Assembly: GCA_943788245.1 (NCBI GenBank)
Contig: CALSPN010000046.1
Location: 64,635 to 128,634 of the forward strand
Direction of reading: 5' to 3'
DNA: 64,000 nt
Source: an uncultured Verrucomicrobiae bacterium
GTDB taxonomy: Bacteria; Verrucomicrobiota; Verrucomicrobiia; Limisphaerales; AAA164-E04
Under the pieces are notes generated by a model. It was not told the DNA's origin. It ran no database searches and worked only from the letters and a program-made list of their open reading frames with translations. This document shows, one piece after another, positions 24,830-38,817 of the stretch. The translations under genes were made by a program, and so were the position numbers. Position 1 is the stretch's first letter. Every line of letters starts with the position of its first letter.

Positions 24830-25279
24830 ATGGCATACGAATGGAAGCATCGACGTCGAGTGGAGTTTTCGGAGACAGACATGGCGGGGATCGTGCATTT
24901 CTCAAATTTCTTCCGTTACATGGAATCTGCCGAGCATGCATTTTTTCGCTCTCTCGGTCACAGTGTGACTCTTTCCGACATTGACGATGCGCTTGGATTG
25001 CCACGAGTCCATGCGCATTGCGATTACAAACGCCCCCTGCGATTCGAAGATGAAGTGGAAATACACCTACTGATAGAATCCGTGAAGCACAAATCCCTTA
25101 CTTACCAATTTCGTTTTTACCGGCTTCAGGACGGCAAAGTCATGGAGGAAGTTGCTCAGGGGCGGATTACCATCGTTTGCGTCCGGAAGGCTTCTGATGG
25201 CGGGTTGAGCGCTTCCTCTCTGCCAGAAGTCATTCGCGACAAAATACAAACTGCCCCTGCCGAACGGCTCATCCCCTAA
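24830..25279 (+). CDS. Acyl-CoA thioesterase (hotdog fold, YbgC/4HBT family)
   Basis: RRRVEFSETDMAGIVHFSNFFRYMESAEHAFFRSLG is the 4HBT-family active-site region. Confidence 0.88.
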   Translation: MAYEWKHRRRVEFSETDMAGIVHFSNFFRYMESAEHAFFRSLGHSVTLSDIDDALGLPRVHAHCDYKRPLRFEDEVEIHLLIESVKHKSLTYQFRFYRLQDGKVMEEVAQGRITIVCVRKASDGGLSASSLPEVIRDKIQTAPAERLIP

Positions 25280-25704: not shown

Positions 25705-26229
25705 TCAGTCTTTCCTGAGTGACTTTCTGGGGGAGTTTTCGGCTGCTTCGCGACACGCATCGGCAATCGTTGTCAATTCCTGAAGGAACAACTTTTTGCT
25801 CTCCTCTGACAAGGATTGAAGTACTTCGCGCTGGAGTTCCACAGCGATATCCTTTGCTTGTTGAAAACTATCGGAACCACAGGTTTTCAGCAATATACGC
25901 CGAGCTCTTCGGTCATTTGGATCAATTTTTCGTTCTATAAAATCAGCGCGCTCCATTCGGTCAAGCAACGAGGCTACTGTGTTTGGATCACTTGACATGC
26001 GAGAGGTAAGTTGTTTCTGGGTCAGTCCTTCATTACTCCCCTGAGCCAGGGTGCGCATGACTGTATACTGATCCGGGGTCATATTCAGGTGTGCAACCCG
26101 TCGTCGAAAGGCTTGGTTCAAACCATACCAAGCCCTCCTGAGCAGCATCGGAAACACTGATCTCTCCTTGGGGAATGCTCCGTTTTGCTCTGGGGGGGGA
26201 TTTAACAGAATTTCATCCAGTTCAGGCAT
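25705..26229 (-). CDS. MarR-family transcriptional regulator
   Basis: VAHLNMTPDQYTVMRTLAQ...GLTQKQLTSRMSSDPNTVASLLDRMERADFIERKIDPNDRRARRILL winged helix. Confidence 0.9.
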   Translation of the reverse strand: MPELDEILLNPPPEQNGAFPKERSVFPMLLRRAWYGLNQAFRRRVAHLNMTPDQYTVMRTLAQGSNEGLTQKQLTSRMSSDPNTVASLLDRMERADFIERKIDPNDRRARRILLKTCGSDSFQQAKDIAVELQREVLQSLSEESKKLFLQELTTIADACREAAENSPRKSLRKD

Positions 26230-26335: not shown

Positions 26336-26351
26336 ATGCTCGCCCGAGCAT
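26336..26351. promoter_or_regulatory. Candidate operator: perfect inverted repeat ATGCTCG-CC-CGAGCAT
   Basis: 7-bp perfect arms with 2-bp spacer between divergent marR and the PQQ-like gene (start 26369). Confidence 0.4.
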
Positions 26352-26368
26352 CAATTCAGCACAGTCCT

Positions 26369-28670
26369 ATGAATACTCAACATATGCAATTTTCTCACTT
26401 CAAACCGCTTGTTGCCTGCACGGCTTTTCTGCTTGTGCTCAGTATGCAGGCTGCATCGGTCAAGGGTTGGCTTCACTGGCGTGGCCCCCACCAGAATGGT
26501 ACCTCCGATGAAATCAATCTTATCGAAGACATCGAATTGGGTGGAAAAAATCATCTTTGGTCCTTTGAAATGCCCGGACGTGGTGAGGCTGTGATCGCTG
26601 ATGGACGTGTTTATGCCTGGGGTTACGAGGGTACAGGTCCTGATTTACGCGAATATTTGACGTGTCTGGAAGAATCAACTGGAAAAGTGATCTGGCAGTA
26701 TGGATTCAATGATTTTCTCAGCGACACGGTTTACAATCGCTACACGGTCGGGGCAGTGACCGTCGATGAAGAGACAGGTAACGTTTACCTGATGTCTACT
26801 GTCGGGGAAATGACTTGTTTTGATCGGGATGGCAAACTGCTTTGGCAGCACTCGATGATGGAGCGTTTTGGAATGTTGACGTTCCCCAATGGTCGCCGAG
26901 GGGCAGCAGTTATTGATGGAGACTTAGTAATTCACCACTGTATTACCAGCTATTGGGGAGCTCAAGGCCCTGCTCGGGATCGTTTTTTTTGCATTTAACA
27001 AGCGGACAGGTGATTTGGTTTGGTCCAGTACACCTGGTACACCACCCAAAGACAGCTCTTTCAGTTCACCGGTTCTCGGGTATTACAATAACAAGCGCGT
27101 GCTTTATGCGGGGACTGGTTGCGGCAATCTAGTCGCCGTCAACGTACGCACAGGTGACCCTTTATGGAGATATCATTTTTCGTATGGCGGTGTGAATTCC
27201 TCGCTGTTGCTTCATGACAATAACAAGATCATTGCAATTCATGGTAAGGAAAATCTGGACTCATCCGAGGTTGGCCGCATGGCCGCTGTAAAGATTGGTG
27301 CCGAACCTGTAAAGGGTGAGTCCGGTCCTGTTGTCCTGACAAAAGAACAGGAGCTCTGGCGTTTACCTCACGTCATGTTCACCAGCTCACCCGTGCTCGT
27401 CGAAGATAAGGTTTACCAGGTAACCCACACAGGTGAATTGATCTGTGTGGATGCCAATTCAGGTAAAGAACTATGGCATCACAAACTTGAGAATGGTCAA
27501 CTGCACGCGTCTCCGCTTTATGCTGATGGTAAACTCTATGTGCCAATGGGGAATGGTAACTTCTACATCCTTCGTTTGAAAAATGATGGAGTGGATGTGT
27601 TGGACAAAGTGAAATTGGCAGGCGGATGCCTGGGAGCTCCCACGGTGTGGAACGGGAAAATCTACGTGCATTCGATGGAGAAGCTTTATTGTTTTGGGAA
27701 CACTGAAAAGCGCGCCAAGCCAGTGATGGCCAAGACAATCAAACCCAAGATAAGCAAGGGTGAGGTCGTCAGGTTGCAGGTAGTGCCACCCGATGTATTG
27801 CTTGCACCAGGCGACAATGCCCGAGTAAGGGTCACCGGTCTGGATAAAGATGGTTGGGTTGTTGACCGTCGTGTGCGTCCGGACTGGGATGCTTTCATTC
27901 CTCCAACCGCAAAAGTAAAATCAAAAGCGGATGCCTCTTTCACTCGCGGAAACCGGATTCGTGCGGACAAGGAGGGATCCACATCTGCAGGTGCTTTCAA
28001 GGGAACTGATGGTGATGCCTCCGGTATCCTGCGTGCTCGCATTCTTCCTGGACTGCCATTCCAAGAAGATTTCGAGTCTTTCACGATCAATGAAACCTAT
28101 CCTTCAAGCCATCGGGAGGCTGGAGTCAACTATGCCTACCCTCCATTGCCCTGGATTGGGGCCCGCTTCAAGTGGGACATTCGTGATATGGACAGCAACA
28201 AGGTTTTGGTCAAAACTCTGGATAATGTTCTGTTCCAGAGGGCGACTTCGTTTATCGGCCATCCCGATTCTTCCAATTACACCCTCGAAGTTGACGTCAT
28301 GACCGACGGGAACCGTCGCATGAAATCCAACGTGGGTGTTATCAATCAACGCTATGTGATCGCTTTGATCGGGAACTGGCAGGAGCTGGAAATCAGCTCC
28401 AACCATGATCGTATCAAAGTCTCGGTGCCTTTCAAATGGTCCACCAAGAAATGGTATCGTATCAAGTCAAGAGTAGATATTGACGGCGACGGTTCTGGGG
28501 TGGTGAGAGCCAAGGCCTGGCCACGTGACGAAGCTGAGCCTGAAAAGTGGACTCTCGAAGTGCCGCACAAGATAGCTCATCCCAAAGGAGCACCGGGCCT
28601 CTACGGGTTCTCACCTCAAACGCGCTACAGCGTTTATGTCGACAATGTTTCCGTGTATCCCAATGAATAG
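26369..28670 (+). CDS. PQQ-like beta-propeller secreted protein, frame interrupted at a T8 run
   Basis: Signal peptide MNTQHMQFSHFKPLVACTAFLLVLSMQAAS; ORFs 26336..26998 and 27015..28670 fuse as ...ARDRFFAFNKRTGDLVW... if one T of T8 (26983-26990) is removed. Confidence 0.85.
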
Positions 28671-28722
28671 GGATGCGTCTTATCTAGAGTATCTAAATTT
28701 TAAAAGAATAGGTAATAGTCTT

Positions 28723-30259
28723 ATGAATACTTCAAAGATCGTTTTGACGACCGCCATGCTGGCCTCAGTTTCCATGGCTGCATTGGGTGGTGACTGGAAC
28801 CAGTGGGGTCGTACCTCCAATAAAAACTTCTACAGCCCTGAAAAGGGTATTCCTCATGAGTTTGCTCCCGGGGATTTCAAGTCAGGGACTGAGGAAATAG
28901 ATCTATCCACGACTGAAAACGTCAAATGGGTTTCCAAGCTGGGTTCGCAAGCTTACGGGAATGTGACTGTTGCCAACGGCCATGTCTACGCCGGCACCAA
29001 CAACGAAACTTTTCGAGATCCCAAGCACAAGGGAGATCGCGGTATTGTTTATTGTCTGGATGAACAAACAGGCGCATTCAAATGGCAGCTGGTCGTCCCA
29101 AAACTGGGTGCCGGTAAGGTCAGTGATTGGGAGTTTCTAGGTATTTGTTCTTCTCCGGCAGTGGATGGAGAGAAGCTGTATGTGGTATCGAACCGCTGTG
29201 AGATTTTGTGTCTGGACGCCAAAGGTTTGGCTGATGGTAACGATGGTTTCAAAGATGAAGCGTCCTACATGGCCGGTCCCGGCAAGCCCCCCCATTACTC
29301 CCGGTGTAACCGATGCAGATATTCTGTGGGTCTTTGACATGCGAGAGGAGCTTGGCGTTTTCCCTCACAATATTGCCAGTAGTTCTGTCGTCGTTGCTGG
29401 TGACTATGTCTATGCCACCACATCCAATGGACAGGATTGGTCTCATCTCAATATTCCTTCTCCCATGGCTCCTTGTCTGGTCGTACTGGACAAGAACACA
29501 GGTGAATATGTAGGTGAAGAGTCATCCGGAATCAGTCGGAACTTGATGCACTGTAACTGGTCTTCACCCGGCTATGGTGAAATAAACGGAAATGGTATGG
29601 TTTTCTTTGGAGCAGGAGATGGTGTCTGTTACGCATTCAATCCAAAGCCCGTACCCGATGGTGACCTAGCCATACTGGAAGAGGTTTGGAAATTCGATTG
29701 TGTGCCCGACAAATACAAAATGGAGAATGGTGAACCCATCAAGTATCCGGCAGCAGAAGGTCCCAGCGAATTGATTTCGACACCCGTTTTCTACAAAAAC
29801 AGGGTCTACATCGCGATTGGTCAAGACCCTGAGCATGGTGAAGGTGTTGGTAATCTCATCTGTATTGATGCGTCCAAGAAAGGTGATATTACCAAAGATG
29901 GGGCGATTTGGAGTTACGACAAAATCAACCGCACTATTTCAACCTGTTCGATAGACCCTGAAACAGGCCTGTTGTTCATGTCCGATTACTCAGGGTTTGT
30001 ATACTGCCTTGATGCTGAAACTGGTCAGGAATACTGGGTTCATGACATGAAAGCACATATGTGGGGCTCGACCCTGGTTGCCGACGGGAAGGTATTTCTC
30101 GGAGACGAGGACGGTGATCTGGTTGTCCTTGCTGCTACCAAGGAAAAGAAAGTTCTTAACGAAGTCTATTTTGGTGCCCCCATTTACTCAACTCCGGTAG
30201 TTGCTAATGGTACGTTGTACGTTGGAACGCAGACTCATCTCTACGCCATTGGTAAATAA
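28723..30259 (+). CDS. Second PQQ-like beta-propeller secreted protein, frame interrupted at a C7 run
   Basis: Signal peptide MNTSKIVLTTAMLASVSMAALGG; the two ORFs fuse as ...GPGKPPITPGVTDADILWVFDM... if one C of 29287-29293 is removed. Confidence 0.85.
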
Positions 30260-30371: not shown

Positions 30372-30620
30372 ATGAAAAATAACGGTTGGATTGTCTGGCT
30401 TGGAACCCTCGCCCTTTTACTCCTGCACCAGGACTTTTGGTTTTGGGATAACTACGAAACGGAGGTCTTTGGCTTCATGCCCATTGGGTTGGCCTACCAT
30501 GCAGGCTTTTCCATTGTCGCTGCTCTATGGTGGGGAGCTGTCATGAGCTTTGCGTGGCCTCATCATCTGGAAGCTTTGGCTGAAGAACAGGAAGAATCAA
30601 TCTCAACACAACGACCATGA
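30372..30620 (+). CDS. DUF3311-like small membrane protein
   Basis: 82 aa, two hydrophobic segments (WIVWLGTLALLLLHQDFWFWDN; GFMPIGLAYHAGFSIVAALWWG), overlaps the start of the SSS transporter gene, a common pairing. Confidence 0.65.
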   Translation: MKNNGWIVWLGTLALLLLHQDFWFWDNYETEVFGFMPIGLAYHAGFSIVAALWWGAVMSFAWPHHLEALAEEQEESISTQRP

Positions 30621-32332
30621 CACCTCTGATTATCATTGTTTGTTACTTGGGGCTTTTGCTGGCTCTGGGAATCATCAGTAGCAGATCCTTCCGCGGTACG
30701 AGCAAGGACTACTTTGTGGCCAGCCATTCGATAGGTCCATTCCTCCTATTGATGAGTGTTTTCGGGACGACCATGACCGCTTTTGCCTTGGTGGGTTCCA
30801 CTGGGAAGGCTTTCGAAAGAGGAATCGGTGTCTATGGGCTGATGGCTTCTATCAGTGGTCTGGTCCATGCAGCCGTTTTCTTCCTGATAGGCATTCGTCT
30901 CTGGGTTTACGGGAAAAAGTACGGATTCGTTACGCAAATTCAATTTTTCCGAGCTAGGTTTGATTCTCAACGTATTGGATACGTCCTGTTTCCAATACTC
31001 GCCATGCTGGTCGTTCCCTACCTCTTGATTGGGATTATTGGTGCTGGCAAAACCGTGTTGCCGGTTACTGCTGGTGCATTTCCCGATCTATTCCCCAATG
31101 CGGCCACCCCTCAGTTTGCCGGTGGCATTCCGGTCTGGCTTACGGGTTTAGTCATTTGCGGAGTCGTGATGACCTACGTGTTTCTTGGTGGTTCGCGTGG
31201 AGCGGCATGGGCGAATACATTTCAAACGATAGTTTTCATGGCCATGGGGCTGGTTGCTTTCGTTTTCATTGCAAACAGCCTGGGCGGATTGACCAATGCT
31301 TCCAAAGTCGCCATTCAAATAAACGATCAAGGTGAAGTAGTTCAACCCTACAGGTGGGATGCTGCAAACAATCAACTGGTAGCCAATGATCCGCCCAAGG
31401 TTGTGGGACGGATCATCGAGGGGGAAAGCGACACAGCGGGATCTTATTCACCGCGCCCGTTGTTGAGTCGTCAAGTGACCACGGTTGAACTGGAGAATGT
31501 AAATAAGAAAACAGGTGAGGTTAGAACATTCACACGTGAGTATGGTATGTCCACATGGATGTTCATGACATATCTATTCATCCCCCTCAGTGTGGGGATG
31601 TTTCCTCATTTGTTTCAGCATTGGTTAACCGCCAAAAGTGCGCGTGCATTCAAACTGACGGTTCTTGCGCATCCATTGTGTATCCTGATTGTTTGGGTGC
31701 CCTGCGTATTGATCGGTATTTGGGCGACGGGTATTTTGCCCCCGCTGGATCCCACCAAAGTAAGTGGAGTATTGGGGCAGATGGTCGCGCGACTGGTTTC
31801 AAGCCCAATACTCAGTGGGTTTCTCATAGCAGGTATTCTGGCGGCCATCATGTCTTCACTGGATTCTCAGTTTTTGTGCCTGGGAACGATGTTTACCAAT
31901 GATATCGTCATTCATAAATTGGGTAGTGGTAAACTCAGCGATCGTCAGGTGATTTTGATCGCCCGTGGATTTGTTGTTGGCATCGTCACACTCACCTACC
32001 TTTTGTCGCTGGTCGCTCCACAAAACGTATTTGACCTGGCTGTATGGTGTTTCAGCGGTTTTGGTGCTTTGTTCCCCCTCGTGTTCGCTGCGGTTTTTTG
32101 GAAGCGTGTCACCAAAGCAGGTGCCTATGCCTGTATCTTGGCAGCCACGCTCAGTTGGTTTTACTTTTTTGCCAAAAGCGGTTTCGGCTCCGAGCTGGTA
32201 CTCGGGCCTGGAATCATGCCGGTAGCAGTATGCTTTCTCATTTCCACCGCAGCATTGATCATTGTTTCCTTGATGACGCGCCCTCCAAGCGAGGAAACCA
32301 TCAAGAAATTCTTTCCCGATAAAGCTTCTTGA
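30617..32332 (+). CDS. Sodium:solute symporter family (SSS) transporter
   Basis: 571 aa multi-TM protein; SSRSFRGTSKDYFVASHSIGPFLLLMSVFGTTMTAF, AGILAAIMSSLDSQFLCLGTMFTND typical of SSSF. Confidence 0.9.
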   Translation: MTPLIIIVCYLGLLLALGIISSRSFRGTSKDYFVASHSIGPFLLLMSVFGTTMTAFALVGSTGKAFERGIGVYGLMASISGLVHAAVFFLIGIRLWVYGKKYGFVTQIQFFRARFDSQRIGYVLFPILAMLVVPYLLIGIIGAGKTVLPVTAGAFPDLFPNAATPQFAGGIPVWLTGLVICGVVMTYVFLGGSRGAAWANTFQTIVFMAMGLVAFVFIANSLGGLTNASKVAIQINDQGEVVQPYRWDAANNQLVANDPPKVVGRIIEGESDTAGSYSPRPLLSRQVTTVELENVNKKTGEVRTFTREYGMSTWMFMTYLFIPLSVGMFPHLFQHWLTAKSARAFKLTVLAHPLCILIVWVPCVLIGIWATGILPPLDPTKVSGVLGQMVARLVSSPILSGFLIAGILAAIMSSLDSQFLCLGTMFTNDIVIHKLGSGKLSDRQVILIARGFVVGIVTLTYLLSLVAPQNVFDLAVWCFSGFGALFPLVFAAVFWKRVTKAGAYACILAATLSWFYFFAKSGFGSELVLGPGIMPVAVCFLISTAALIIVSLMTRPPSEETIKKFFPDKAS

Positions 32333-32383: not shown

Positions 32384-33475
32384 ATGATGAGTACTGAAAC
32401 TGTTTCAAACGAAGCAATCCAACAGGCCAAAGAGCAACTCGATGCTCACGTCCGTGAGATTGTTCAATGGCACTTTTCCCCCGAAACCGGTAGTCCCTTT
32501 TGGTTGGATTGGGCGGAAAAAGCAGGGTGGAATCCAGCTCAGGAGATCGAATCTTTTGATGACATCATTGCCCGGTTTCCACACTTCCAAGACGAGTGGC
32601 TTCGTGATCTCCAGCCCGATGTGTGGGTTCCGCAAGCATTCAAGGGCCAACCTTTCAATGTATTCGAAACTGGAGGCACCACAGGCATGCCCAAGCAGCG
32701 CATTGGGTGGACCGACTATAAAGTCGATTACAGCGAGTTTTCCGAAAAGATTTCTGACGACCATTTTCCCCGAAACCACTATTGGCTGATGATGGGGCCG
32801 ACCGGTCCTCGTCGATTGCGACTTGCCATCGAACATCTGGCCAATGTGCGCGGCTGCTCATGCTACTTCATTGACCTGGATCCTCGCTTCGTCAAGAAGT
32901 TGATTGCGGACAAGAAATTTGATGTCGCGCGAAGTTACATGGATCATGTCATCGATCAGGCTGTGACGATTCTCAAGCATCGTAAGGTCAGCGGTGTCTT
33001 TACCACCCCCAAATTATTGGAAGCGTTATCTGAAAAGATCGATCTATGGGAAGCTGGCATTCGCGGGGTGTTCTGTGGTGGAACCACCATGGATCCTCAG
33101 TACACGCGCTTTCTACTGGAGGAAGTTCTCGAGAACCGCATCGGATTCTACCCAACCTACGGTAACACGTTGATGGGGTTAGCGGCCAGCGTGCCTGTCA
33201 CAAGAGAAGACAATTTCTCAATCACCTACTACGCACCTCAACCACGGGCAGTCCTGCGCGTTGTGGATGCTGAAAAGACAGATGAGGTGAAGGAGTATGA
33301 TGAATGGGGACGAGTGGAATTGACCACCTTGACCAAGGAGTTTTTCATGCCCCGTTTTCTGGAGCGTGACGAAGCATTGCGGCGGGAGCCTCGCGCGCCA
33401 TACGCATGGGATGGCGTTGCTCAGGTTCGTCCGTTCGGGGCCATGGAGAAAAAAATTGTTGAAGGTGTTTATTAG
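32384..33475 (+). CDS. Stand-alone ANL-superfamily adenylation domain (EhpF-like), lacking C-terminal subdomain
   Basis: FETGGTTGMPKQR (A3-like), FYPTYGNTLMG (A5-like), ends at about 363 aa with no C-terminal lid or catalytic Lys motif. Confidence 0.7.
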   Translation: MMSTETVSNEAIQQAKEQLDAHVREIVQWHFSPETGSPFWLDWAEKAGWNPAQEIESFDDIIARFPHFQDEWLRDLQPDVWVPQAFKGQPFNVFETGGTTGMPKQRIGWTDYKVDYSEFSEKISDDHFPRNHYWLMMGPTGPRRLRLAIEHLANVRGCSCYFIDLDPRFVKKLIADKKFDVARSYMDHVIDQAVTILKHRKVSGVFTTPKLLEALSEKIDLWEAGIRGVFCGGTTMDPQYTRFLLEEVLENRIGFYPTYGNTLMGLAASVPVTREDNFSITYYAPQPRAVLRVVDAEKTDEVKEYDEWGRVELTTLTKEFFMPRFLERDEALRREPRAPYAWDGVAQVRPFGAMEKKIVEGVY

Positions 33476-33493
33476 TCAAGCAGGGTTAATATT

Positions 33494-34930
33494 ATGAGTT
33501 CCATACCACATATCCCGTGCCTGAGAAAAGGTGCGCCTTACGAAAGCCTCGATCAGATAGAGATCAAGGGTTACAGCGACGGCCAAACCCTTGCAAGTGT
33601 GAGCACCGTTAATGGGGGAATCATCCGCCGAGATTTGCGTCGAATTGACCAAGGGAAGGCGGCCCTGAGAAAATTCACCGTTGACCAGTTGATCGATATC
33701 TCGGCAAAGGCTGGAGAAGTATTTTTAAACGGTTCATTGCCTCTTGGTGACAAAGGGCATACTCAGTCTCCCGAAGATTACATAAGCACACTGTCCGCAA
33801 CTTCCGGATTACCGCATGTGATGGTCAAACGCAACATGGATAAAATCCATCATGCGTTGACCCACATGAGGACGGTGTTGACAGGGCTCACACGCGGACT
33901 TGATTTTTCCATCCTGGATAAAGGTTACGGGGCGCAGTTTGGCACGCGTATTAGCTACTACTCAACCGCCAAAGCCCTAGGCTTGGTCATGCCCAGCAAC
34001 TCTCCCGCTGTGAATTCCCTCTGGTTGCCTGCCATTCCACTCAAGACACCTGTCATCATCAAACCCGGGCGCGAGGAACCATGGACGCCTTATCGGTTGA
34101 TACAGTCCTTTATTGCAGCTGGGTGCCCTGCGGAGGCTTTCGGGTTTTATCCAACCGATCACGAAGGCGCGGGTGTGATTCTTGAGAGTTGTGGGCGTGC
34201 CTTGATTTTTGGGGATCAAAACACCACGGCTCAGTATGCCAACAACCCGGGCATTCAAATTCATGGGCCTGGATTCAGTAAGATTCTGGTGGGTGATGAT
34301 CAAATCGAACATTGGCCGGACTTCATCGACCTCATGGCCGCTTCCATTTCGGAGAATGGCGGGCGTAGTTGTATCAATGCCTCCGCGGTAGTGGTTCCAA
34401 AGTATGGGAAGGAAATTGCAGATGCACTCGCGAAAAAACTGGGCCCCTACAAACCAACCCGCCCAGATGACCAAGGCGCGCGTCTTTCCGGGTTTGCCAA
34501 CCCGAAAATGGCAGAATACATCGATGGGGCCATCGCACAGGATCTCAAAGAACCCGGCGCTGAGGATGTGACTGCGCACTATCGGGAAGGTAGTCGCAAG
34601 TTGGAATTCGAAGGGGGGACTTACTTGTGTCCAACGATTGTTCATTGCGATTCAATTGCCCACCCTCTTGCCAACCGGGAGTTTCTATGCCCTTACGCAA
34701 GTGTGGTCGAGGTTCCTCAAGCTGAGATGCTGGAAAAAATAGGTCCTTCACTAGTCGTTTCAGCGATTACCAAAGATCCTGAATTTACCGAAATGTTACT
34801 TGATTCGGATTTGATTGAACGTCTCAACCTGGGGGCAATTCCAACCATGAAAATATCATGGGATCAACCGCATGAAGGCAACATGTTTGAATTTCTCTAC
34901 AAGCGCCGGTCCATCGAAAGAGAGGAGTAA
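33494..34930 (+). CDS. Aldehyde dehydrogenase-fold protein, candidate acyl-AMP/acyl reductase (EhpG-like)
   Basis: MPSNSPAVNSLWLPAIPLKTPVIIKPG and NGGRSCINASAVVVP with catalytic Cys; 18 bp downstream of the adenylation gene. Confidence 0.75.
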   Translation: MSSIPHIPCLRKGAPYESLDQIEIKGYSDGQTLASVSTVNGGIIRRDLRRIDQGKAALRKFTVDQLIDISAKAGEVFLNGSLPLGDKGHTQSPEDYISTLSATSGLPHVMVKRNMDKIHHALTHMRTVLTGLTRGLDFSILDKGYGAQFGTRISYYSTAKALGLVMPSNSPAVNSLWLPAIPLKTPVIIKPGREEPWTPYRLIQSFIAAGCPAEAFGFYPTDHEGAGVILESCGRALIFGDQNTTAQYANNPGIQIHGPGFSKILVGDDQIEHWPDFIDLMAASISENGGRSCINASAVVVPKYGKEIADALAKKLGPYKPTRPDDQGARLSGFANPKMAEYIDGAIAQDLKEPGAEDVTAHYREGSRKLEFEGGTYLCPTIVHCDSIAHPLANREFLCPYASVVEVPQAEMLEKIGPSLVVSAITKDPEFTEMLLDSDLIERLNLGAIPTMKISWDQPHEGNMFEFLYKRRSIEREE

Positions 34931-35027
34931 CCTTTGATCGCTATTACCTGTCACAGGGTGTAACGGTAATTGGAATTTCCTCCTGATGAACAGGGGGTAT
35001 GTCGTTGCATCTATAAAGTGTTACACC

Positions 35028-36251
35028 ATGGATCTTGAGTCGTCATTGAAACAAGCGGGAACAACCCGGTCCTCCTCATTGGACTGGCATCTGAACGCTT
35101 TTGATATTCAACCAAGAACCCGTTTGGTTTTTGGCGAAGGTAAGATTTATGAATTGGGCAATATCGTCCGAGACCTGGGCGGTGCGCGTGTGCTGATTGT
35201 CACGGATCCCGGAATTGTTGCTGCTGGACATTCCGACCTTGCGCTCAAGATCCTTGAGGAAGCTGGATTAAAGGTATTTGTTTTTGATCAAGTGCACGAA
35301 AACCCGACTACTGCCGATGTGGCAGCTTGTGTTGAGGTTGCCTCATCCAAGCAAATTGATATATTTGTTGGTTTAGGTGGCGGTAGCAGCATGGATACCG
35401 CCAAAGGATGTAATTTTATTCTGACCAACGGCGGTCGTATGCAGGATTACTGGGGCATCGGAAAGGCTTCCCATCCCATGCTGCCCATGGTGGCGGTTCC
35501 CACCACCTCCGGCACAGGGAGTGAATGCCAGTCATTCGCCTTGATTGCCGATGAGGTTTCTCACCAGAAAATGGCCTGTGGCGACTCGAAAGCTGCCGCC
35601 AAAGTTGCCATCCTTGACCCGGCTCTCACGGTATCCCAACCACGTCGTGTGACCGCGTGCACCGGTATGGATGCCTTAACCCATGCGCTTGAAACAGCCG
35701 TCACACGCAAGCGCACGCTTTACAGCTCCATGCACGCTCTCGAGGCTTTCAAACTATTGCTTCCGAATCTTCCGATCGTCCTGGATAAACCCCAAGACCT
35801 TGAGGCTCGAGGTAAAATGCAGCTAGGGGCTGCCCTGGCCGGCATTGCCATTGAGAACAGCATGCTGGGCGCAGCGCACGCCACAGCTAACCCCTTGACG
35901 GCTGGTTTCGATGTGATTCACGGCATGGCGGTGGGGGTGATGATGCCACATGTGATTCGGTGGAACGCAAGCTGCAAAGCCACCGCAAACTCCTATGCTC
36001 AAATCGCTTGCGAAACGCGTGTGGCGTCTTCTCATGATTCGGTCCCTCATTCGGTGAACAAACTCGTCACGGCCATCGAGCATATCCTTGAAGTCACAGA
36101 AATTCCATCGACCCTCAATTCTCATGGAGTTGGTCAGAAGGATCTTGATAAACTGGCTGAAGGTGCCTCCCAGCAATGGACGGGTAACTTTAACCCCGTT
36201 GATATTACTCAGGCCGATTACCGTTCTCTCTACTCACTGGCCTTGGATTAG
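35028..36251 (+). CDS. Iron-containing alcohol dehydrogenase
   Basis: RTRLVFGEGKIYELG, VGLGGGSSMDTAKGCNF, VPTTSGTGSE, HGMAVGVMMPHVIRWN. Confidence 0.92.
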   Translation: MDLESSLKQAGTTRSSSLDWHLNAFDIQPRTRLVFGEGKIYELGNIVRDLGGARVLIVTDPGIVAAGHSDLALKILEEAGLKVFVFDQVHENPTTADVAACVEVASSKQIDIFVGLGGGSSMDTAKGCNFILTNGGRMQDYWGIGKASHPMLPMVAVPTTSGTGSECQSFALIADEVSHQKMACGDSKAAAKVAILDPALTVSQPRRVTACTGMDALTHALETAVTRKRTLYSSMHALEAFKLLLPNLPIVLDKPQDLEARGKMQLGAALAGIAIENSMLGAAHATANPLTAGFDVIHGMAVGVMMPHVIRWNASCKATANSYAQIACETRVASSHDSVPHSVNKLVTAIEHILEVTEIPSTLNSHGVGQKDLDKLAEGASQQWTGNFNPVDITQADYRSLYSLALD

Positions 36252-37886: not shown

Positions 37887-38817
37887 ATGGAAAAAGTAGT
37901 TATTATTGGAACAGGCTGTGCAGGTTTGACAGCTGCTATTTACAGCGCGCGTGCGAATTTGAATCCCTTGGTTCTTACCGGAACCATGCCTGGTGGTTTA
38001 TTGACAACCACAAGCACTGTGGAGAATTTTCCCGGATTTCCCGAGGGGGTAGATGGGTTTCAATTAATGCAGCACATGCAGAAACAGGCCGAACGATTTG
38101 GCGCACGCGTTCAGTTCGGGACCGTAGAATCGGCCGATCTCTCCGGAGATCATCCCAAACTAGTCGTCGACGGCAAGGAAATCGAAACCCAGACCCTGAT
38201 TATTGCCACTGGTGCAGGGCACCGTCACCTCGGGCTCGAGAATGAAAAAAAACTCGAAAACAAAGGAGTGACCTACTGCGCGACCTGTGATGGGGCATTA
38301 CCTATGTTCAGGGATAAGCCACTGGTTGTCGTTGGTGGCGGTGATTCTGCCTGCGAAGAAGCCACTTACCTGACTCGATTCGGATCGAAGGTATACCTCA
38401 TCCACCGACGTGATGAATTGAGAGCAAGCAAAATCATGGCCGAGCGTGCTGTCAACCATGATAAGATAGAAATGGTATGGGATACCTGTAGTGACAGAAA
38501 TACATGGTGTGGAAGAGGATGAGGTTACAGGTGTTCAGCTGAAAAATACCAAGACGGGTGAGGAAAGCAGGCTTGATTGCGCGGGTGTTTTTGTTGCCAT
38601 CGGTCATGTGCCCAATACTCAAATCTTCACCGGTCACATCGATATGGACGAAGCGGGCTACGTGCTGCCACGGGGCGGTAGTAAGACATCTTCCAAGGGA
38701 GTTTTTGTAGCAGGAGACTGCGCTGACCAAGTATATCGCCAAGCCATCACTGCAGCGGGCATGGGCTGCATGGCAGCGATCGATGCCGAGCGTTATCTGG
38801 GTGAACAGGATCAGTAA
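37887..38817 (+). CDS. trxB: Thioredoxin reductase, frame interrupted near 38486
   Basis: [25 protein letters not shown], redox motif [21 protein letters not shown]; ORFs fuse as [28 protein letters not shown] if one base is removed. Confidence 0.92.

Follow-up and report, generated by a model that had tools for sequence, protein, structure and literature searches.

Two neighbouring genes in the 64,000-nucleotide stretch of DNA that we analysed (the window), from an uncultured Verrucomicrobiae bacterium, very probably encode the two parts of one enzyme, which converts an aromatic acid to the aldehyde. We read the pair as a likely split aryl-carboxylate reductase of the EhpF/EhpG-GriC/GriD kind, acting on an acid that is probably chorismate-derived and of the hydroxybenzoate type. 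Together with the iron-containing alcohol dehydrogenase (Fe-ADH) gene that follows them, the EhpF-like and ALDH-fold genes make up a three-gene acid-aldehyde-alcohol cassette. The EhpF-like protein is predicted to use ATP and the acid to form an aryl-adenylate and, having no C-terminal lid, would not complete the second half-reaction by itself. The acyl group would pass directly to the ALDH-fold partner, at Cys293, and be reduced there from thioester to aldehyde with NAD(P)H; the Fe-ADH would take the reduction on to the alcohol. As a whole, the cassette would be a module within a more extensive, conserved pathway of Verrucomicrobiota. The features of the pair are as follows.

32384..33475, + strand: EhpF/GriC-like lid-less adenylation protein, 363 aa (phmmer to EhpF; Foldseek of the AF2 model)
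32672..32695, + strand: P-loop/A3-like motif GGTTGMPK, aa 97-104 (sequence and alignment)
33158..33169, + strand: A5-like motif YGNT, aa 259-262 (sequence and alignment)
33494..34930, + strand: EhpG/GriD-type ALDH-fold acyl reductase, 478 aa (PF00171, E 4e-10; genome co-occurrence with the EhpF-like gene)
33998..34000, + strand: codon of oxyanion-hole Asn169 of the ALDH-fold partner (alignment)
34262..34264, + strand: codon of His257, in the place of the general-base Glu of hydrolytic ALDHs (alignment)
34370..34372, + strand: codon of catalytic Cys293 of the ALDH-fold partner (alignment)

Both open reading frames lie exactly where the first-pass annotation had placed them, with a gap of 18 bp between them, and the EhpF-like frame starts with ATG at 32384. 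The two motifs that the annotation had picked out in the first protein are present at the positions listed above; G97, G98, T99, T100, G101, P103 and K104, as well as YGNT, are kept in at least 97% of 115 aligned EhpF-like rows. In a phmmer search, EhpF (3hgu/3hgv/3l2k) was the sole PDB sequence match of the 363-aa protein (E 9e-40), and a profile comparison of the two gave an E-value of 2e-47. The alignment to EhpF spans residues 20-363 of the window protein, up to the natural C-terminus of both, and the two proteins share their last residues, EGVY. Orthologues of 75-99% identity occur in at least 80 other genomes, and chance is therefore excluded.

The annotation had further proposed that this protein ends without the C-terminal subdomain. 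Against the Pfam AMP-binding family it matches only the last part of the model, just under the cut-off, and the AMP-binding C-terminal domain was not found in it by Pfam search; a PaaK-type ligase from the same pathway of the relatives, used as a positive control, matches AMP-binding_C_2. Because its length, which is kept in relatives, and its C-terminus equal those of EhpF and are conserved, we regard the missing lid as native. The same observations rule out a frameshifted or truncated adenylation gene; other genes of the window are frameshifted. Structure prediction recovered the ANL fold, with EhpF crystal structures as the top five Foldseek matches (TM 0.68-0.70, E 7e-22 to 4.5e-20) of an AF2 model of moderate confidence (mean pLDDT 69.7, below 50 for the last 27 residues). 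The next fold ranks were held by PaaK-like and aryl-acid adenylating enzymes (NatL2 with salicylate, ClxA with 3-amino-4-hydroxybenzoate).

The ALDH catalytic Cys that had been noted within GGRSCINAS of the second protein is residue 293, in a PF00171 match. It is Cys in all 88 aligned partner rows, so that none of these orthologues has lost it, and the same Cys is found in the partners from Pantoea, Streptomyces, Burkholderia, an E. coli plasmid and haloarchaea. Asn169 is likewise Asn in 88/88 rows, and Glu396 is present in 86 and gapped in the remaining two. The general-base position, placed by sequence alignment, holds His in 86 of the 88 rows and Glu in none, which sets the protein apart from the hydrolytic NAD(P)-dependent ALDHs; the more distant partners named above carry Q, R or Y at this position. 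An enzyme that receives or gives an acyl group, as the CoA-acylating ALDHs do, and does not hydrolyse it would be expected to have lost this Glu. The His in its place therefore fits an acyl-transfer reductase. A second subfamily of the partner, 43-45% identical, is found in several Limisphaerales genomes instead of the usual one and in others together with it (loci L187:7931, L188:8373, L189:7899, L190:7929 and L191:4643).

We then compared the distribution of the two proteins across genomes, using counts that ignore shared ancestry. In an order-level sample of 58 genomes centred on the order of the window, both partners were present in 41 genomes, the EhpF-like protein alone in none, the ALDH alone in one and neither in 16; about 70% of the order-level Verrucomicrobiota genomes sampled thus have an EhpF-type reductase. 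In a phylum-level sample of 388 genomes the corresponding counts, which omit three paralogues of 28-29% identity, were 19, 0, 0 and 369. The co-occurrence is not mere linkage, because 15 of those 41 genomes, some of which have the genes on short contigs, do not show the two within 6 kb of each other. The idea that many relatives lack the partner, for want of an ALDH gene after the EhpF gene, proved wrong: the partner lies elsewhere in the genome. In a plasmid collection, all 18 near-full-length partner ALDHs were in records that also bear an EhpF homologue, and these pairs are mostly adjacent, inside phenazine and other aromatic clusters. By co-occurrence, then, the EhpG/GriD-type partner is paired obligately with an EhpF-type protein. 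One haloarchaeal plasmid, from Halalkalicoccus jeotgali (L236:4508-8566), carries SSS-EhpF-ALDH in the order of the window, with an adjoining SDR gene and an IclR regulator. Two MAG contigs labelled Planctomycetota (L090 and L104) also carry the cassette; their EhpF proteins are 78-79% identical and nested in the verrucomicrobial clade, reflecting recent transfer or mis-binning.

These observations bear on how the acyl group reaches the reductase. It could be loaded by the EhpF-like protein onto CoA, or onto a carrier, with the partner acting as a CoA-acylating reductase that takes the thioester. CoA-acylating ALDHs likewise do without the general-base Glu, the best NCBIfam match of the partner is one of them (MMSDH, far under the cut-off), and PaaK-type CoA ligases come next after EhpF in the fold ranking of the EhpF-like protein. 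However, the lid domain that forms the CoA site of ANL ligases is missing here, and the near-strict co-occurrence of both proteins is that of an obligate pair. We therefore consider this route unlikely and favour direct transfer between the two proteins.

The genes around the pair, one of which, the Fe-ADH gene, had been overlooked in the first-pass annotation, are listed below.

24830..25279, + strand: 4HBT-type hot-dog thioesterase (PF13279, E 3e-16)
25705..26229, - strand: divergent MarR-type regulator (likeness to BagL/FevM, OhrR and HpaR models, under cut-offs)
26336..28670, + strand: PQQ-type beta-propeller protein a, interrupted in the assembly (intact 777-aa orthologue in L043)
28636..30259, + strand: PQQ-type beta-propeller protein b, interrupted in the assembly (intact 551-aa orthologue in L043)
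30372..30620, + strand: DUF3311 small membrane protein (PF11755, E 3e-5, under the Pfam cut-off; kept beside SSS)
30617..32332, + strand: sodium:solute symporter, SSS (PF00474, E 1e-29; conserved order)
34986..36251, + strand: Fe-ADH, third gene of the cassette (PF00465, E 1e-49; PF25137, E 5e-37)

The Fe-ADH gene lies downstream of EhpG in 26 of the 30 relatives with room for it. The SSS gene, 51 bp upstream of the EhpF-like gene, is replaced by an MFS transporter gene in other relatives, and the DUF3311 protein is a probable partner of the symporter. The MarR-type regulator is conserved upstream in relatives. Both PQQ propeller genes and a thioredoxin-reductase-like gene (37887-38817) appear in the window as overlapping or adjacent frames, and all three broken genes are intact in a near-identical MAG contig, L043 (NZFL01000005.1), which suggests that the breaks are indel errors of assembly.

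In the basal families (L255-L260), the pair lies within one continuous gene block of about 17 kb, in the order PQQa-PQQb-DUF3311-SSS-EhpF-EhpG-FeADH-PQQ3-radical SAM (HemN-like)-182-aa protein-FAD enzyme-GT4 glycosyltransferase-hot-dog thioesterase-small membrane protein-PaaK-type ligase, with an ABC exporter adjoining it in several of them. A dozen other loci join the first half directly to the radical SAM half. The block is divided in Limisphaerales. Its first half lies in the window, as does the thioesterase at 24830-25279, which is of the same family as the thioesterase of the relatives' full block and 41-50% identical to it, while PQQ3-radical SAM-182 aa-FAD enzyme lie at 92.3-96.8 kb of another contig of the same genome (C4; L215:7260-11753). 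The block is thus one unit in the basal families and dispersed in Limisphaerales, where its genes are nonetheless retained or lost jointly. The radical SAM gene, counted at a strict E-value of 1e-60, and the 182-aa gene share the presence/absence pattern of the pair, the co-occurrence counts for the latter being 40/1/2/15 in the 58 genomes and 17/2/0/369 in the 388 genomes. A HemN-like gene beside hem genes in L059 is probably an ordinary HemN.

The FAD enzyme of the block carries the WxWxIP motif of flavin-dependent halogenases in 25/25 sequences, and the radical SAM protein carries CxxxCxxC in 26/26. The 182-aa protein matched no Pfam family. Its AF2 model (pLDDT 92) had AF1396 (DUF98) as its best fold match, with a TM of 0.69, and a TM of about 0.53 to E. 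coli chorismate lyase in the fold search; a profile comparison with E. coli UbiC was insignificant (probability 3.6). UTRA effector domains share this fold too, and the 182-aa protein has no DNA-binding part. Its Arg78 and Glu177 are invariant and align with an Arg and a Glu of AF1396; chorismate lyases employ an Arg and a Glu at such positions. The model thus points to a chorismate-lyase-fold protein, and by its fold the protein may be read as a chorismate lyase.

Because the block contains this chorismate-lyase-fold protein together with biosynthetic-looking genes, the substrate of the pair is most likely a chorismate-derived hydroxybenzoate-type acid, which the 182-aa protein would probably make from chorismate. 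A point against this proposal is the importer of the operon, which would equally suit a pathway from an imported acid. Taken over the whole block of some 15 genes, the pair may well be the reducing module of an undescribed aromatic pathway widespread in Verrucomicrobiota. In such a pathway, the chorismate-lyase-fold enzyme would make a hydroxybenzoate for modification by the CmlS-like halogenase-type flavoprotein and the HemN-like radical SAM protein. Reduction to the alcohol would fall to EhpF/EhpG and Fe-ADH, and the final steps to the glycosyltransferase and exporter.

The cassette could conversely run in the oxidative direction: Fe-ADH and ALDH would oxidise an imported aromatic alcohol or aldehyde to the acid, which the adenylating protein would activate for a later step. 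The importer-type SSS or MFS genes immediately upstream would suit this, as would the SSS-EhpF-ALDH arrangement with an IclR regulator on the haloarchaeal plasmid and the similarity of the MarR regulator to HpaR-type regulators. Yet no aligned row retains the general-base Glu on which hydrolytic aldehyde oxidation depends, the relatives known best serve biosynthesis and work reductively, and the full block looks biosynthetic, with its chorismate-lyase fold, radical SAM protein, flavoprotein, glycosyltransferase and exporter. We consider an oxidative cassette quite improbable and retain the reductive reading.

Among known systems, the closest comparison is EhpF/EhpG of the D-alanylgriseoluteic acid phenazine cluster of Pantoea agglomerans Eh1087. 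The adenylating proteins are collinear over their full length and both lid-less, and in both systems the ALDH-fold partner is adjacent, shares the catalytic Cys and lacks the general-base Glu. In contrast, identity is only about 30% for EhpF and 22% for EhpG, and the verrucomicrobial pair is accompanied by Fe-ADH and by another gene block. In a tree with several long outside branches, the phenazine EhpF clade (support 97/93) is separate from the verrucomicrobial EhpF-like clade (100/99). The proposal of a split acid reductase resembling EhpF/EhpG is thus borne out by full-length homology, fold matches, the invariant Cys and genome co-occurrence. We rejected a phenazine pathway because PhzA/B had no match in the genome of the window, which is about 79% complete. 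This agrees with the earlier argument that the substrate is probably another one in the absence of phz core genes, and the wider block points to a chorismate-derived benzoate-type acid.

A better functional precedent is GriC/GriD of grixazone biosynthesis in Streptomyces griseus, described in PMC10179220, citing Suzuki 2007, as a carboxylic acid reductase for 3-amino-4-hydroxybenzoate. By that description, it resembles our pair as a two-gene adenylation and ALDH-type reduction of an aryl acid; the gene neighbourhood differs. Streptomyces homologues of EhpF carry the annotation 'arylcarboxylate reductase'. Such homologues adjoin a type I PKS (L123:5989-7074), with no EhpG-type ALDH detected in the same record, and may use another acceptor. 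Single-chain CARs share the overall ATP- and NAD(P)H-dependent reaction predicted for the verrucomicrobial pair, but a CAR combines a phosphopantetheine carrier and an SDR-type reductase domain in a single polypeptide, whereas the pair consists of two ORFs with an ALDH-fold reductase. Pfam searches found no carrier or SDR-type domain (fused A-PCP-R) in either protein.

The first-pass annotation had also drawn an analogy to LuxE/LuxC, which holds for the logic of a separate acyl-activating protein and an ALDH-type reductase with an acyl-enzyme and does not extend to family membership. A LuxE/LuxC-type fatty-acid reductase would use an identical two-protein logic, but it is very improbable here, as neither protein has a Pfam LuxE/LuxC match at E<=1, LuxE is unmatched in the genome, and the nearest relatives either act on aromatic acids or are associated with them. 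The family of the pair is that of EhpF/EhpG and GriC/GriD, not of LuxE/LuxC.

The enzyme kind is therefore already known from antibiotic-making bacteria, where the EhpF-type reductases described so far are rare enzymes that tailor antibiotics; what is new is its membership in a large conserved gene set of many Verrucomicrobiota. The many natural EhpF/EhpG pairs found here supply material for testing the direct passage of an acyl group from a lid-less adenylating protein to an ALDH Cys, and they are possibly simple two-protein biocatalysts for aromatic aldehydes. The surrounding verrucomicrobial gene set is apparently uncharacterised, a limited literature search having returned nothing relevant on it. 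Its retention or loss as a whole suggests that it makes a regular metabolite, undescribed as far as that search can tell, of these abundant and hard-to-culture Verrucomicrobiota.
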